Below, in pieces: positions 20,892 through 42,496 of a DNA stretch of 64,000 nt (the stretch's first letter is position 1; every line of letters begins with the position of its first letter). Position numbers and translations under genes: made by a program. Origin of the DNA: Elusimicrobiota bacterium (GTDB lineage: Bacteria; Elusimicrobiota; UBA8919); assembly GCA_016928195.1 (NCBI GenBank), contig JAFGLF010000076.1:1-64000 (forward strand), written 5' to 3'. The notes beneath the pieces were generated by a model. It did no database searches. It saw nothing but the letters and a program-made list of their open reading frames with translations, and was not told the origin of the DNA.

Positions 20892-21755
20892 CTATTTTTT
20901 TGTAAGTTTTGATTTATATCTTAAAATATCAATAATACGGTTCAGATCACCGAGAGATGCACAGGATATTATTAATTTTCCTTTACCTCCGCGATATTTT
21001 ATTTCAACTTTTGTTCCCAGAATTTTCTGTAATTCTTCTTCTATGGCAATAACGTCACTGTCTTTCTTGGAAGGACTTATTCTGACTTTTTGAGATATTT
21101 TTTCCGCATCCCGGACAGTTAAATGTTGATTTATAATTTTTTCCAGCAGAAGTTTTTGTTTTAACGGGTCCTCAATGGCTGCTATTGCCCGTGCATGGCC
21201 TTCCCTGATTTTCCCTTCGGATATAGCATCTTGTATATTTTTCGGCATTGTGAGAATCCTTACAATATTCGCGATGGCCGAACGTGATTTGCCAAGGGTT
21301 GCTGCCAAATCTTCCTGACGCAGGCCGAATTCTGTCATTAGTCGTTTATATCCGTTGGCTTCTTCTACAGGATTAAAATCTTTTCGCTGAAGGTTTTCAA
21401 TTAATGATAGAATAAAGCTTTCTTTTTCGGAGACGGTTTTTACTATAGCAGGTATCTCGGAAAGGCCGGCAAGTTTAGCTGCCCGCCATCTCCTTTCGCC
21501 GGCTATCAGTTCATAAATTCCATCTTCACGCTTTGTTGATATGATTATCGGCTGGACAAGACCGTGCTCGGTAATTGATGCTGCAAGGTCCTTAAGCTCT
21601 GTTTCGTCGAATTTTGCTCTTGACTGGTATTTGTTGGGTTTAATCTGGTTGATTGGTATCTTTATTGTTCCTTCAACTGATTCTGATGTTGTAGAAAGCG
21701 CATTCCCGATTTCCGGTATCAATGCTTCCAATCCTTTCCCTAATGCCTTTCTCAT
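20892..21755 (-). CDS. parB: ParB family chromosome partitioning protein
   Basis: KALGKGLEALIPE, GERRWRAAKLAGLSEIPAIV, ENLQRKDFNPVEEANGYKRLM. Confidence 0.96.
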   Translation of the reverse strand: MRKALGKGLEALIPEIGNALSTTSESVEGTIKIPINQIKPNKYQSRAKFDETELKDLAASITEHGLVQPIIISTKREDGIYELIAGERRWRAAKLAGLSEIPAIVKTVSEKESFILSLIENLQRKDFNPVEEANGYKRLMTEFGLRQEDLAATLGKSRSAIANIVRILTMPKNIQDAISEGKIREGHARAIAAIEDPLKQKLLLEKIINQHLTVRDAEKISQKVRISPSKKDSDVIAIEEELQKILGTKVEIKYRGGKGKLIISCASLGDLNRIIDILRYKSKLTKK

Positions 21756-21793: not shown

Positions 21794-22594
21794 TTAAGAA
21801 TTATTTTCGGAGTCTTCTTGCTCTATAGGTCCTTTGTCCTTTTCAATAATTTCCTTTGCAAAATTCATATATGCTTCTGCACCTTTTGAACGTTTGTCGT
21901 AGAGTATTACCGGTTTGCCAAATCCCGGCGCCTCTGCAATTTTAACATTCCTCGGAATAATTGTTTTATAAACCTTATCGGGAAAATACTTTTTAATCTC
22001 GCTTATGACCTGTCCGGAAAGATTAATACGCGCATCATACATAGTCAGCAATACACCGTCGATAATAAGAGAAGGGTTTAAAACCTGTTTTAGTTTTTTT
22101 TGAAGTTCCAAGAGCTGTCCAAGTCCTTCTAAAGCGTAATATTCGCACTGTATAGGTATTATTAATGAGTTGGCTGCAGTTAATGCATTAATGGTCAATA
22201 ATCCTAATGAAGGCGGACAGTCAATTATAATGTATTCGTAAACACGCTGAAATTTTTCCAGCGCATTTTTTAATTTTGTTTCCCGTGATAAAGTGTTTAC
22301 AAGTTCTACTTCAGCGCCAACTAAATCCAACCCGGAAGGTACGATTTCACACCATTCAATCTCCGTGGGTAAAATTGCATCTTCGAGCAGTTTATCTCTC
22401 ATCAGAACATCATATATACTTGTTTTACTTTCGTTTTTTTTTATTCCTAACCCACTTGTAGAGTTTGCCTGCGGGTCCAGGTCAATAAGAAGTGTTTCGT
22501 GGGAAAGCATAGCAAGTGAGGCAGAAAGGTTTATAGCAGTTGTTGTTTTCCCTACTCCGCCTTTTTGGTTTGCAATAACAATTATTTTACTCAT
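21794..22594 (-). CDS. parA: ParA family chromosome partitioning ATPase
   Basis: MSKIIVIANQKGGVGKTTTAINLSASLA, DLDPQANSTSGLG; start trimmed. Confidence 0.96.
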   Translation of the reverse strand: MSKIIVIANQKGGVGKTTTAINLSASLAMLSHETLLIDLDPQANSTSGLGIKKNESKTSIYDVLMRDKLLEDAILPTEIEWCEIVPSGLDLVGAEVELVNTLSRETKLKNALEKFQRVYEYIIIDCPPSLGLLTINALTAANSLIIPIQCEYYALEGLGQLLELQKKLKQVLNPSLIIDGVLLTMYDARINLSGQVISEIKKYFPDKVYKTIIPRNVKIAEAPGFGKPVILYDKRSKGAEAYMNFAKEIIEKDKGPIEQEDSENNS

Positions 22595-22639
22595 GGTGCA
22601 GGATAAGAGTTCCTTAGATAGAGTTATTTTGTTGATTCG

Positions 22640-22665
22640 CCCAGCCCTTGCATGCAAGGGCTGGG
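22640..22665. repeat. 26-bp perfect palindrome CCCAGCCCTTGCATGCAAGGGCTGGG in parA leader
   Basis: Read directly; between the predicted parA promoter and start codon. Confidence 0.85.
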
Positions 22666-22697
22666 TTCATTATATAAAAGGTTAAAAAAAAGTCAAG
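22666..22697 (-). promoter_or_regulatory. Predicted parA promoter
   Basis: Minus strand TTGACT-16 bp-TATAAT. Confidence 0.6.
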
Positions 22698-22719
22698 CAA
22701 AAACTGTTCACGTAAAACA

Positions 22720-24009
22720 TCAGGACGAAACAAGGTCATAAATTTTTTTGACTGCTAGAATCGGGGTTTTTAAAATTTCTCCCGGGAGGTGTTTTTTAGA
22801 AAAAAGGATTTTTCCGTCGATCTCAGGAGCCTGGAATTCAGTATGCCCGAGTTTTTCAGAATCAGCAAGGATATCAAAAGTTTTTCCCACCCGTTTTTCA
22901 TTTTTCTTTAATGTGATTTTTTGCTGAGTCTTCATTATTTCGGCAAGCCGGGTGTTTTTAGTTTTTTGAGAAACAGAATTATGCATATTAAAAGCTTTTG
23001 TTCCCGTCTGCGGCGAATAAACAAATCCGCCCAGCCAGTCAAATTCCAGCGCTTTTATATCATTTAGCAACTTTTTAAAATTTTTCTCCGTTTCGTCGGG
23101 GAATCCCACCATAATAGTTGTCCGCAGAGTAATACCATGGATTTTTTTTCTTAGTTTTTCAATTGTATCAAAAATAATTTTGGAATAGGGCCTCCCCATT
23201 TTCTTTAATATTATGTCGTCTGTATGCTGTATAGGGATATCAATATATTTACACAGTTTGCTGTTTTCAGCGATTACTGATATTAGTTCGTCGGTAAAAT
23301 GAGCCGGGTGGGTATATAAAATTCGTATCCATTTCAATCCTTTAATGCCGGATATATTTTTTAGGAGTAAAGACAGCGCGGGGCTCCCATAAATATCAAT
23401 GCCATATAAAGTTGTGTCCTGAGCCACCAATATAATCTCTTTTCTGCCTGTGTTTACGGCGTTTTGAATATCTTTTATTATATATTCAATATTTCGGCTT
23501 CTGAAATGACCCCGTAGTCTTGGTATTAAACAATAATTACATTTATTATTGCATCCATCTGCTATTTTTATGTATGCATAGCTTCTGGGTGTTGAAAATA
23601 TCTTTGGTTCGTCGGAAATAATAAATTTTGGCGTGGTTATTTTATTAATGGGTCTTCCGGTAGAATTTAATTTGTCTATTATATTTGGAATTATATTGAA
23701 ATCCGAACTCCCGAGAATAGCGTCAATACCAGGGTATGGTTTTAATAATGTCTTTTTTTCAAGTTGTGGTAAACAACCACAAACAATAAGTTTTTGCCAT
23801 GGTTGTTTGCTTTCTGAAATACCACTTATTGCTGTGTATGCCTCTTTTCTTGCCGAATCAATAAAAGCACAGGTATTTATTATTATTACGTCTGCAAGGT
23901 TACTGTTCTGGATAAAAGTATATCCTTTTTTAGCAAGGATTCCGGCTATTGTTTCTGAATCAACAAGATTTTTTGGACAACCAAATGAAATTATGTAAAT
24001 ATTGCGCAT
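22720..24009 (-). CDS. rimO: RimO-like ribosomal protein S12 methylthiotransferase (radical SAM, MTTase)
   Basis: MRNIYIISFGCPKNLVDSE, IKIADGCNNKCNYCLIPRLRG, TTIMVGFPDETEKNF. Confidence 0.93.
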   Translation of the reverse strand: MRNIYIISFGCPKNLVDSETIAGILAKKGYTFIQNSNLADVIIINTCAFIDSARKEAYTAISGISESKQPWQKLIVCGCLPQLEKKTLLKPYPGIDAILGSSDFNIIPNIIDKLNSTGRPINKITTPKFIISDEPKIFSTPRSYAYIKIADGCNNKCNYCLIPRLRGHFRSRNIEYIIKDIQNAVNTGRKEIILVAQDTTLYGIDIYGSPALSLLLKNISGIKGLKWIRILYTHPAHFTDELISVIAENSKLCKYIDIPIQHTDDIILKKMGRPYSKIIFDTIEKLRKKIHGITLRTTIMVGFPDETEKNFKKLLNDIKALEFDWLGGFVYSPQTGTKAFNMHNSVSQKTKNTRLAEIMKTQQKITLKKNEKRVGKTFDILADSEKLGHTEFQAPEIDGKILFSKKHLPGEILKTPILAVKKIYDLVSS

Positions 24010-24032
24010 ATTTTGTAGTATCAAGAACCCAA

Positions 24033-24134: not shown

Positions 24135-24150
24135 TGTTTCACGTGAAACA
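24135..24150. promoter_or_regulatory. parS site TGTTTCACGTGAAACA (perfect)
   Basis: Exact consensus parS 16-mer, near parAB. Confidence 0.95.
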
Positions 24151-24151
24151 T

Positions 24152-25831
24152 TTATCTGTTAAACATTAATCTCCTGTTAAATGATGCATTTGCTTCATTT
24201 TGCCACCCTGCTTGTGTAAATACTACTCCGGAATTATGACATGAAGAAACGTAATAATTAATTACCTGTGTCCCATAGTACGTAGGATTTCCTGGCGGTT
24301 TGCGGAAAGGGTATAGGTCATACAAAAAAAGTCTTGTTTTTATCATCTTTGCCCTGTTTAGCATGTTTTTATCCTTTGAGATCCTGCAAATTATGCCTAT
24401 TGGTACAGAATATTCCTCTAATTCAGCATGTACCCCTTCTGCAAAAACAGGATATTTTTCTACAATCTTTAATAAACAATCGGTTGTTGATCCGGATTTA
24501 CCCATTGAGAACAGTTCAGGATATTTATTTTCATATTCTGCTATTCTCCAGGGCAGATACGAATGAAGGACAACTTTTATGTCTTGACGTTTTTTTTCTA
24601 CAGTTTGTAGATAATTAATAGTAAAAATAGGGATATCAGCAGTTATTGATAAAAATGAGTTTTTTGGTACGGAACGAGCCAAATTTTTAACATAATCATA
24701 AGCAAGAAAATCATACCTTTTATTTAATTTTGGTAAATTAATAAACCCAGCATATAAAGATATCCCTAAAAAGAAATATATTAATGGTTTTATTTTAGTC
24801 TTTTTTATTATGGAACCTATAATTAATGTTTCGAAAACCATTGGTAATACACATGCAGGTTCCAGAATTGCCAGGGAAAGCTCAGTATTTGGTAGCCTGG
24901 AGAGAAATATGAAAAAGGGCCCTGAAAATATAAATAGTAATAAAAGTGTTTTACCAAAAATGTCACTAAAGCACAAAATTGTCCCAATTAATAGTAATAT
25001 GAGTCCAGGCCAGCCAAGTTGCTTCTTTTGTAATTCCCAATACATTTTAACAGAGTCTGTTAGTGCGTTTACTGTCCCGGAATGCCGTCGAGAAAGCTTT
25101 ATAACACCATAATCCGCCCGTGTAATAACATTGGCAAAATTGCCGAGATTTTTAGGATTACCCCAGTTATTAATAGGTTGTTGGGCTGATCTTATAGGCA
25201 GGAATAGATAAATAGAGAATCCGAGTATAAAGGCAGAGAGAAGAGAAAGGAGAAAAGAGAGAGAGAATGAAGGCAAAAGACTTTTTCTTTTGTTCTTCAT
25301 TATTAGATATAAAATACCCGGTATTAAAAGAACTATGGAATGATGATTACCGAGTGCAAGACCAAGCAGAAAGGCAGAGAGTAGTAAGTACCCAGAGTAG
25401 GTTCGCCCGTGGCTAAGAATGGGGAGTAGCAAAAGATAAAGTATTAAAACTGCAAAGAGGGCATTTAGCGAATAAATCTCACTTATAATACTCTGTTGCC
25501 AAAAAGAACTTGAAAAAATCAAGAAAAAAGCAGAAACTAACGCTGGCCATGTAGTGCTAAATACTTTTTTGGCTATATAATAGGTAATTACTATGCATAA
25601 TGAAGAGATAAAAGCGGAAAGAAGATTTAGCCGATAGCCGATATTCCCAAAAGGAAGTAAAAAAGTCCATAATTTTCCCAGTATAACATATACAGGGTAC
25701 CCTGGAGGATGGGCTATTCCCAGAGTATATGCAGAAGTAATTAGATCTCCTGCATCTCTAAAAGCCGGTAATGTGGGATACAGGGTATAGAGGTAAATAA
25801 AAAAACTGATAAAAAATAGAAAAATGGCCAT
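24152..25831 (-). CDS. DUF2723 family membrane protein (lacks the TPR tail of its paralog at 40619)
   Basis: YPTLPAFRDAGDLITSAYTLGIAHPPGYPVYVILGKL; paralogous to the ORF at 40619. Confidence 0.85.
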   Translation of the reverse strand: MAIFLFFISFFIYLYTLYPTLPAFRDAGDLITSAYTLGIAHPPGYPVYVILGKLWTFLLPFGNIGYRLNLLSAFISSLCIVITYYIAKKVFSTTWPALVSAFFLIFSSSFWQQSIISEIYSLNALFAVLILYLLLLPILSHGRTYSGYLLLSAFLLGLALGNHHSIVLLIPGILYLIMKNKRKSLLPSFSLSFLLSLLSAFILGFSIYLFLPIRSAQQPINNWGNPKNLGNFANVITRADYGVIKLSRRHSGTVNALTDSVKMYWELQKKQLGWPGLILLLIGTILCFSDIFGKTLLLLFIFSGPFFIFLSRLPNTELSLAILEPACVLPMVFETLIIGSIIKKTKIKPLIYFFLGISLYAGFINLPKLNKRYDFLAYDYVKNLARSVPKNSFLSITADIPIFTINYLQTVEKKRQDIKVVLHSYLPWRIAEYENKYPELFSMGKSGSTTDCLLKIVEKYPVFAEGVHAELEEYSVPIGIICRISKDKNMLNRAKMIKTRLFLYDLYPFRKPPGNPTYYGTQVINYYVSSCHNSGVVFTQAGWQNEANASFNRRLMFNR

Positions 25832-25847
25832 TGTTTCACGTGAAACA
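25832..25847. promoter_or_regulatory. parS site TGTTTCACGTGAAACA (perfect)
   Basis: Exact consensus parS; contains the TGA stop of the phosphatase gene and abuts the DUF2723 ATG. Confidence 0.95.
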
Positions 25848-26318
25848 TTTAAATTTGAGTATTTTTGTTAGGCTTCTTTCTATACAATCTTTAATTTCTT
25901 TAAGTTTTAGCTTATTAGCCGGCGGAGGATGACCTAAAGGGTCTTCAATTTCGATTTCACCATCGTCTGCTAATTCTTTAAGTAGGAATGTTTTTGATTT
26001 TGTTCTCGGGAATAAGGTTGTTATAAAACTTTTGTGTCTTTTTTCCATAACAATTATTAGATCAGATTTGTTTATAATTTGTTCAGTAATCTGTGTAGAA
26101 ATATGGTTTGAGAAGTCAATACCGGCATTCTGCATGACTTCCGCAAGATCCCCGTATATCCTGTATTCAGGATTTGCTGCTGTTCCTGCAGAGCTAACTG
26201 TAATATTGGTTATCCCTTTTTCTTTTAGGAGGTTCTTTAAAATGCCCTCACCCATAACTGACCTGCAGACATTCCCAGTGCATACGAAAGTAATATGTTT
26301 TGGACCAGTAGACCCCAT
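25836..26318 (-). CDS. low-molecular-weight protein-tyrosine-phosphatase-like protein
   Basis: ITFVCTGNVCRSVMGEGILK (CX5R loop), IEDPLGHP. Confidence 0.88.
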   Translation of the reverse strand: MGSTGPKHITFVCTGNVCRSVMGEGILKNLLKEKGITNITVSSAGTAANPEYRIYGDLAEVMQNAGIDFSNHISTQITEQIINKSDLIIVMEKRHKSFITTLFPRTKSKTFLLKELADDGEIEIEDPLGHPPPANKLKLKEIKDCIERSLTKILKFKCFT

Positions 26319-26321
26319 AAG

Positions 26322-27257
26322 TTAGTCCTTTAACCATGCTTTTTCAAGGTCATATATTGTTTGGAATTCTGATTGATAGCCCAAAAATAATGCAGAGTCG
26401 AGATTTTCTGTTTCCCTTAGGGTTGCTAAAAAGTTATAAAAATTCGTTTTTGCTCTTTTTTCCAGCATAAATGTTATTAATGATTCTGCCTGAGCATACC
26501 AAATTTCTACTTTTTTTACAGGTGCAGTGTATAGATTTAACGTCAAGAATTCAGGCATTTCCATTCTTTTTGACTTATCAAATTCATATTTTTTTATATT
26601 GCTGTTTTTATTTTCTTCATACATAGCCAGCCCTTCATTTACCCAAACAGATATTTTTGTAGCTTTTCCTTGCATAAAGTCATTAAATATAAGATGAGTT
26701 GCTTCATGTGGAAGTATGTAATCAAGATGTGGCCCTTCAAAAGTATACATTTTTCTATCAAAAACAAATCCGCCTGACCATTCCGCTCTTTTTGTATTTT
26801 CTTTGTACATCTGCACATCCTTATATATGTAGATTTCGAACCTTTCAGGAGGATTAAAGTTATAAAGATTGGTATCAGCTATTATTGCATTATAGATTTT
26901 TTCCATTTTTGGAGCTAATTCCTCCAGTAATTGGTTGTTAAATGAATAAATTGTAAAGTGAACAGAGTATGTTTTGGAAAATCCGTTAGGGATATTGGGG
27001 GTAAATTCTCTTGAGGGAACGGATTCATATGCTTTTGCCCGTTGTAATGAAGCAATCTGACCTTTCAGGGACTCTAATTTTTCGTTATTTTTTCTGACAA
27101 TTTTTTCATTTTTTCTGTCAATAAAACTTGAAATAGCCATTAAAAAAAAACATAGATAAATTACCAGAGCTACACCAATTATCATAAGCCAGTGTATCCG
27201 GTTTGTTCCCATCGGCGAGGTTTTCACCCGTCTCCTCCAATACTTCTTTGTTTGCAA
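26322..27257 (-). CDS. membrane-anchored putative metallopeptidase (peptidase MA-like)
   Basis: N-terminal TM; DYILPHEATHLIFNDFM (HExxH) and WVNEGLAMYEE. Confidence 0.75.
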   Translation of the reverse strand: MQTKKYWRRRVKTSPMGTNRIHWLMIIGVALVIYLCFFLMAISSFIDRKNEKIVRKNNEKLESLKGQIASLQRAKAYESVPSREFTPNIPNGFSKTYSVHFTIYSFNNQLLEELAPKMEKIYNAIIADTNLYNFNPPERFEIYIYKDVQMYKENTKRAEWSGGFVFDRKMYTFEGPHLDYILPHEATHLIFNDFMQGKATKISVWVNEGLAMYEENKNSNIKKYEFDKSKRMEMPEFLTLNLYTAPVKKVEIWYAQAESLITFMLEKRAKTNFYNFLATLRETENLDSALFLGYQSEFQTIYDLEKAWLKD

Positions 27258-40618: not shown

Positions 40619-42496
40619 ATGTTTTTCTTGATTTTCGGATGTACATTTATTTTTTATATTTTCTCCATGTACCCGACAATTTCTCCTTATCGTGACAGCG
40701 GGGATATGATAGTTTCGGCATTTACTCTCGGGATTGCCCATCCGCCCGGATATCCGCTTTACGTATTATTAGGTAAGATTTTTATCGTTTTATTCCCACT
40801 TGGTAATATTGCATATCGTATAAATTTGATGTCTGCCTTTTTCGGAGCGTTAGCCTGCGGGATATTATATCTGCTGATTAAAAGATTATGTATAGAAAGT
40901 ATAAGCATGGCAGACAAGCCCCGCTATTTATCTATAGCTCCCGCCGTAGCAGTAGTATTATTTGCATTTACATCAGCAATGCATTCTCTCAGTATTGTTT
41001 CTGAAATGTATTCAATAAATATATTTTTCGCTGTTTTAGTAATGTATATCTTATTTTTTCCCAGATACTTTTCGCCAGCCGGCAGATTACTTGCTGTATT
41101 TATTTTGGGGCTGGGAATGGGCAATCACCAGACACTTATACTTTTAATTCCCGGAATAATATATTTAATAATAAGAAATAAGAATAATAACCTTTTGAAT
41201 TTATCTGGCATACGTTATCTGTCATACATCATCTGTATTTTTATGTTGGGGTTATTCGTTTATCTTTTTCTTCCGGTTCGTTCTGCCCGGAATCCTGTCG
41301 CGGATTGGGGTTCTCCCGCTAAATCATTCAGGAATTTTGCAAGAGTTTTTACTCGCGCGGATTATGGTGCCGTACGTCTACATCCTGAGAAAAGCCCATC
41401 ACATCAGAACATCGCAGTGGCAGCCAGACATTTTGTTGATTTTTTAAAAATTTCGGTTGAAGGAAACAGGTTTTTGGTAATTCTCATAATTTGTTTTCTC
41501 TTGTTCGGGATGCAGTTTTCATTTAAAAAGAGTTTTTTCTGGCCGTTATTTTTGTTCTGGTTTTTTTCAGGTCCGTTCTTTTTCATAATTTCAAACCTTC
41601 CTTTGGAAGATAAGACATCGCTACCCATACTGGAACCATATCTTATAATGCCATTGGCAGTTTTTTCAATATGGATTGGACTCGGGATTCTTTATATACA
41701 TTGTAAATTGATTAAATTTGTCAATAATGAAATTGTTTTAATTTTAGCTGCAGGAATAGTAATATTAGGGATTTTTAGAGCACCCGAACTTAATAAACGA
41801 TACGAATTTATTGCCTATGACTATTCAAAAGACCTTCTTAAAACATTGCCTTATAACTCTGTATTGTTCAATCCGGATGATACAACAACCTTTACATTAA
41901 AATATCAGCAGGAATGTTTAGGAAAAAGAAAGGATATTAAACTCGCAGTTTTTTATAAGACATTATGGGGATATCAGCAAATCAAAGAGAGATATCCGGA
42001 AATTTTGCCGAATTATGAAATAAAAGGAGGAATAGAATTGGAGAAAACCCTTTTATCATATAACTTTAACCGGATCCCGTTTTATACGGATAATATAGTC
42101 AAAATACCGAAGCAGTATAAGATTTTTCCAAAGGGATTACTTTACGGTAATTCCGGTATTTTTGAGCAGATGTTTGATTTTTATATAAAAATGCGTACTT
42201 CAGGGAAAGAAAGATTTTTTACACATCAGATAATAAACTATTATTCTGCAGGTTATAATAATTCAGGGCTTGCATTTAATGAGAAAAAGTTGTACAATAA
42301 AAGTATACGGCTCTTTGAAAAAGCAATTGCTATTGATCCGTCATTGTCACAGGCATATAATAATTTAGGTGTCGTGTACTGGGAAAAGGGCGATTATAAA
42401 AAGGCAGCCGATTATTTCAGGGAAGCGCTTAAGTATGTGCCGTCGGATACGGGTGTTAAAGGAAATTTACAAATGGCAGAGGAAAAAATAAAATGA
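40619..42496 (+). CDS. DUF2723 family membrane protein with C-terminal TPR
   Basis: YPTISPYRDSGDMIVSAFTLGIAHPPGYPLYVLLGK; C-terminal SQAYNNLGVVYWEKGDYKKAADYFREALKY. Confidence 0.85.
   Translation: MFFLIFGCTFIFYIFSMYPTISPYRDSGDMIVSAFTLGIAHPPGYPLYVLLGKIFIVLFPLGNIAYRINLMSAFFGALACGILYLLIKRLCIESISMADKPRYLSIAPAVAVVLFAFTSAMHSLSIVSEMYSINIFFAVLVMYILFFPRYFSPAGRLLAVFILGLGMGNHQTLILLIPGIIYLIIRNKNNNLLNLSGIRYLSYIICIFMLGLFVYLFLPVRSARNPVADWGSPAKSFRNFARVFTRADYGAVRLHPEKSPSHQNIAVAARHFVDFLKISVEGNRFLVILIICFLLFGMQFSFKKSFFWPLFLFWFFSGPFFFIISNLPLEDKTSLPILEPYLIMPLAVFSIWIGLGILYIHCKLIKFVNNEIVLILAAGIVILGIFRAPELNKRYEFIAYDYSKDLLKTLPYNSVLFNPDDTTTFTLKYQQECLGKRKDIKLAVFYKTLWGYQQIKERYPEILPNYEIKGGIELEKTLLSYNFNRIPFYTDNIVKIPKQYKIFPKGLLYGNSGIFEQMFDFYIKMRTSGKERFFTHQIINYYSAGYNNSGLAFNEKKLYNKSIRLFEKAIAIDPSLSQAYNNLGVVYWEKGDYKKAADYFREALKYVPSDTGVKGNLQMAEEKIK

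Follow-up and report, generated by a model that had tools for sequence, protein, structure and literature searches.

Two copies of the palindrome TGTTTCACGTGAAACA flank a single DUF2723 gene in an Elusimicrobiota genome, which raises the question of whether this fit reflects a role of the sites for the gene or the way in which such sites are placed along the chromosome. The window analysed here is the whole stretch of 64,000 nucleotides that contains both copies. A first, sequence-only reading had reported two perfect 16-mers, one directly against the DUF2723 ATG with the phosphatase TGA inside it and CFT* coded from it, the other 1 bp from the DUF2723 stop. All of this was confirmed, with 0 mismatches at both positions (Table 1). 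These are exactly the two perfect copies in the window, and a scan of the whole 2.37-Mb genome recovered no third copy at ≤1 mismatch; one extra TGTTTCACGTGAAACA-like site with 2 mismatches sits on a different contig. Base composition predicts ~0.0009 perfect copies in the genome, and shuffled window sequence gave 0.32 matches even with three mismatches allowed. The identity between the copies extends beyond the 16-mer, as had been stated, although its length is 21 bp (TTGTTTCACGTGAAACATTTA) and not 20 bp.

Two parS sites of a chromosomal ParABS system

The parB and parA genes lie 2-4 kb from the two sites, with the parA open reading frame (ORF) directly upstream of parB. The ParA protein matches AAA_31 (E 7e-65), and ParB possesses the domains PF02195, PF17762 and PF23552 together with the stretch GERRWRA, seen in the alignment, which contains the GERR motif of the CTPase. 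The best PDB matches of the window ParB are ParB/Spo0J structures. The window also holds dnaA, dnaN, rnpA and yidC, and the cumulative GC skew reaches its minimum at ~20-22 kb, alongside dnaA-dnaN. Given the distance to parA and parB, the presence of dnaA and dnaN, the skew minimum and the ParB domains, both repeats are almost certainly canonical chromosomal parS (centromere) sites of a standard ParABS system. The earlier identification of the repeats as parS therefore stands on the canonical sequence, the intact parA/parB pair, the oriC-type surroundings and the retention of the sites in relatives.

Residues 173, 179, 184 and 201 follow Caulobacter numbering, which was assigned by aligning ParB with the Myxococcus protein and from what we take to be the Caulobacter sequence context, the latter compared with the residues that PMC7383237 names. 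Nucleoid occlusion by Noc at its NBS site (Q173, K179, K184 and R201; site ATTTCCCGGGAAAT) was considered and rejected, as the window ParB has R-I-T-G at these positions and the sites are parS. Following established ParB biology, CTP-bound ParB dimers would load at each parS and then slide outward, so that one partition complex would form over the oriC-proximal segment, and ParA and SMC would act on this complex to segregate the origin. A literature search, which covered few subscription papers, returned nothing relevant on parS in Elusimicrobia, on MFHVKH or on TTTTCACGTGAAAA.

Table 1. Features at and around the two parS sites (window positions)
Feature	Position	Strand	Description
ParB	20892..21755	-	ParB_N, HTH_ParB, ParB_C; R-I-T-G at 173/179/184/201 (Caulobacter numbering)
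ParA	21794..22657	-	ORF begins at upstream TTG; alignment with homologues starts at residue 22
RimO/MiaB-like radical SAM protein	22720..24024	-	gene between parS sites in relatives
parS site 1	24135..24150	.	perfect palindrome; in 127-bp DUF2723-rimO spacer; 1 bp past DUF2723 stop
DUF2723/TMEM260-like membrane protein, PF11028	24152..25831	-	between the two parS sites
parS site 2	25832..25847	.	perfect palindrome; fills phosphatase/DUF2723 junction; holds phosphatase TGA, abuts DUF2723 ATG
Low-molecular-weight phosphotyrosine phosphatase	25836..26318	-	stop codon inside parS 2
Peptidase MA-like protein	26322..27257	-	opens apparent operon pepMA-phosphatase-DUF2723

The apparent operon pepMA-phosphatase-DUF2723 has gaps of 3 and 4 bp. 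The parS-flanked DUF2723 ORF comprises 559 residues and matches PF11028, a family that Pfam now calls TMEM260-like, with an E value of 5e-33 (114.8 bits against a curated cut-off of 24.2). A second DUF2723/TMEM260-like gene is located at 40619-42496 of the window. The true start of rimO is probably the ATG at 24009, residue 6 of the ORF. Promoter and terminator scans yielded matches no more often than in shuffled sequence, none of them overlapping parS 2, and an RNA hairpin formed by parS in the leader was weak (z -1.3).

Placement of parS in relatives and at gene borders

The comparison genomes with names are Elusimicrobia metagenome assemblies, in which gene calls are based on ORFs. Seven genomes of the same family contain 15 further perfect parS, and all of those listed fall in the segment pepMA/phosphatase-[DUF2723]-rimO-parA. 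On contigs where two or three sites could be read, neighbouring sites always enclose a single gene. This is rimO in G001, G003, G004 and G006, while G002 and G005 have rimO in one such interval and the orthologue of the DUF2723 gene in another. In the window, it is the DUF2723 gene that is bracketed, and the rimO-parA site is absent. This third parS, which would fall in the rimO-parA gap (22657-22720 in the window), is present in several same-family genomes. Orthologues of the parS-flanked gene were found in G002 and G005 only (53-54% identity), which belong to another genus than the window genome; G007 is too fragmented to judge. The best DUF2723 matches in G001, G003, G004 and G006 are orthologues of the window gene at 40619-42496 (61-64%). 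A gene-specific bracket was rejected, as relatives lacking the orthologue retain the sites and their DUF2723-family matches belong to that second gene.

The junctions themselves also vary. Upstream of the DUF2723 orthologue, parS is ~70 bp from the start in G005 and ~190 bp in G002. A flush junction of parS and ATG is found on rimO in G001, G003 and G004, which represent three genera, and opens reading frames of 422-430 residues. In G006 (L068:349-620), the flush ATG after parS opens just 14 codons and the rimO start follows ~230 bp on; in G003, of the same genus, rimO itself starts at the flush ATG. Because parS is kept around rimO where the orthologue is missing, and it is rimO that then has the flush junction, the sites follow the chromosomal segment and not the DUF2723 gene. 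The proposal of the sequence-only reading that the sites matter specifically for the DUF2723 gene is not supported, as relatives without an orthologue keep parS around rimO, and in the two relatives that have one, parS is tens to hundreds of bases away from the ends of that gene. That reading had suggested comparing synteny in relatives; the overlap is not conserved there, the outcome it had named beforehand as counting against it.

A rival reading takes the bracket as a regulatory device, through which ParB loaded at both parS would repress or tune expression of the DUF2723 gene and possibly of rimO. There is a precedent in Pseudomonas aeruginosa, where ParB at the intergenic parS3 and parS4 represses the adjacent promoters, one of which serves an envelope (lipid A) gene (PMC5521831). 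However, parS 2 lies inside the apparent operon and not at a predicted promoter, relatives without the DUF2723 orthologue keep the sites while the flush junction moves to rimO, and loss of Spo0J in Bacillus subtilis left the genes beside parS unchanged (PMC7022226). A regulatory device is thus unlikely. By analogy with P. aeruginosa, ParB may influence how neighbouring genes are transcribed, and any change in DUF2723 expression would be incidental to the occupancy of parS by ParB.

Alternatively, the DUF2723 gene and one parS might form a cassette that recombination between the parS copies, which are 21-bp direct repeats 1.7 kb apart, has inserted or removed. The window genome and two genomes from another genus have the orthologous gene with parS on both sides; no copy of it was found in the remaining same-family genomes, and these retain a single parS upstream of rimO. 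Simple recombination would, however, leave parS ~110-125 bp from rimO, and three relatives have it flush. Moreover, 21 bp is a short repeat length for homologous recombination, and support in the family tree is weak at the nodes concerned (31-78), which together make a cassette improbable.

The placement of parS across the phylum offers the preferred account of the bracket. Among 95 distinct parS (≤1 mismatch) in Elusimicrobiota loci, 80 touch no ORF of at least 90 residues, whereas such ORFs cover 77% of positions drawn at random from these loci. Two intergenic sites 1-2 kb apart (1.7 kb in the window) will consequently bracket exactly one gene; in the window, this happens to be DUF2723, and in relatives it is usually rimO. 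The tight fit around the DUF2723 gene is therefore mostly a packing accident. Exact abutment to a gene end was observed 7 times, against ~1 expected for uniform placement in spacers; as three of the 7 are rimO in one family and two come from related genomes, these represent ~4 independent events. This surplus of abutments over the expectation may mean that more than chance draws parS to gene borders.

Part of the flush fit can be traced to the flanking bases. After the parS core, A/T followed by T is preferred (54% T at the second base), so that the AT of an ATG is already supplied. The trinucleotides after exact phylum sites (ATG 10, ATT 12, ATC 7 and ATA 6) show no clear excess of ATG, and among the flush ATGs four open a long gene and the others 3-14 codons. 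When parS lies over a start codon, it codes MFHVKH, MFHMKQ or MFHVKQ of secreted-looking proteins (L075:9672-10466, L076:8851-9642, L109:1500-2226 and L072:7022-9214). The parS-coded N-terminus MFHVKH/MFHMKQ is conserved in two genera of family f11, and in G011 parS codes the first residues of a SpoIID/TPR protein. Given the abutments on rimO and the parS-coded N-termini in other families, overlap of parS with gene ends is a recurrent, mild feature that is not special to the DUF2723 gene. That parS in this phylum is actively held at gene borders, sharing start or stop bases and coupling ParB loading to adjacent transcription or translation, is very unlikely.

At the stop codon overlap in the window, the phosphatase ends with ...KILKFKCFT*, of which CFT* is read from parS; its homologues end at or near ...KILK, and FKCFT is an unaligned extension in the window protein. 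To judge from this unaligned tail, the phosphatase would have lost its old stop and now end at the TGA that every parS contains. The parS-coded tail lies beyond the conserved C-terminus, hence no coding constraint is visible on the phosphatase side, and the earlier claim of a dual coding and binding constraint on parS is not supported at this site. Joint selection of parS 2 as coding end, start region and ParB site is very unlikely: parS 2 does hold the phosphatase TGA and abut the DUF2723 ATG, and elsewhere parS codes the first residues of secreted-looking proteins in two genera of one family, but homologues lack the phosphatase tail read from parS, other members of the gene family do not share the overlap, and the ParB-binding requirement alone fixes the parS sequence.

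Variant parS sites and ParB residue 173

Canonical parS was found in 61 of the 295 Elusimicrobiota genomes, and HTH_ParB in 261 of them. In families without canonical parS, a different palindrome, GTTTTCACGTGAAAAC, recurs around parB. It occurs in 100 of the 295 genomes (about a third), and the reversed control pattern in one. Its half-sites differ from those of parS in their two outermost bases, which are GT instead of TG. The variant loci (L119-L133, L144-L152 and L190-L249) belong to Elusimicrobiota families other than that of the window, which has the canonical state. Canonical and variant sites occur together only in G167, whose parB contig carries the canonical site only.

Residue 173 of ParB contacts base 1 of parS and has been treated as invariant (Jalal et al. 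2020, PMC7383237). In the loci examined, which entered the site scan by having a core no more than 9 kb from parB, ParBs with K173 go with GT in 147 of 162 half-sites and with TG in 0, whereas those with R173 go with TG in 159 of 224 half-sites and with GT in 48. The GT half-sites of R173 ParBs come from a genus with mixed or hybrid sites (f6/g30), or from f6/g62 and f20. On a tree built from ParB alone (94 tips), the R173/TG proteins of f6/g40 and f18/g61 nest inside the K173/GT group, as do the R173 proteins with GT or mixed sites of f6/g62 and g30. This nesting suggests several changes of residue 173 and site, with the sites lagging behind the residue in g30. That ParB residue 173 and the parS sequence have changed together more than once is, taken as covariation, very likely. 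Several K173 genomes of f18/g47 (L126, L206 and L208-L211) have no site within 1 mismatch of the TTTCACGTGAAA core near parB, and for this reason the centromere of f18/g47 may have changed further.

The finding in the window locates the centromere in a lineage of uncultured Elusimicrobiota, and the object itself is ordinary. The bracket around one gene is explained by site spacing and avoidance of coding sequence, and gene regulation should not be read into the position of parS. More interesting than the two-site bracket is the parS/ParB change in other families, which merits its own study. A changed site, a matching residue, apparent reversals and mixed intermediates would together make the evolution of centromere specificity testable with purified proteins and short DNA.

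Comparison with known systems

The window system resembles the ParABS systems of B. subtilis (Spo0J), Caulobacter and P. aeruginosa in its identical 16-bp parS palindrome, its parA-parB pair, the location of the sites beside dnaA/oriC, and R173 and G201 of ParB. It differs in that there are no more than two sites and each lies at a gene junction, with one of them sharing stop-codon bases and abutting a start codon. Like parS3 and parS4 of P. aeruginosa (PMC5521831), the sites are intergenic, near oriC and beside an envelope-related gene; unlike them, one site is inside an apparent operon instead of a demonstrated promoter, and relatives do not consistently have the gene beside the site. In the other families, residue 173 covaries with parS base 1, similar to the specificity switching between ParB and Noc (Jalal et al. 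2020, PMC7383237). However, compared to the Noc/NBS combination described there, the Elusimicrobiota change consists of R173 to K, base 1 from G to T and base 0 from T to G, whereas residue 201 and base 6 are unchanged.
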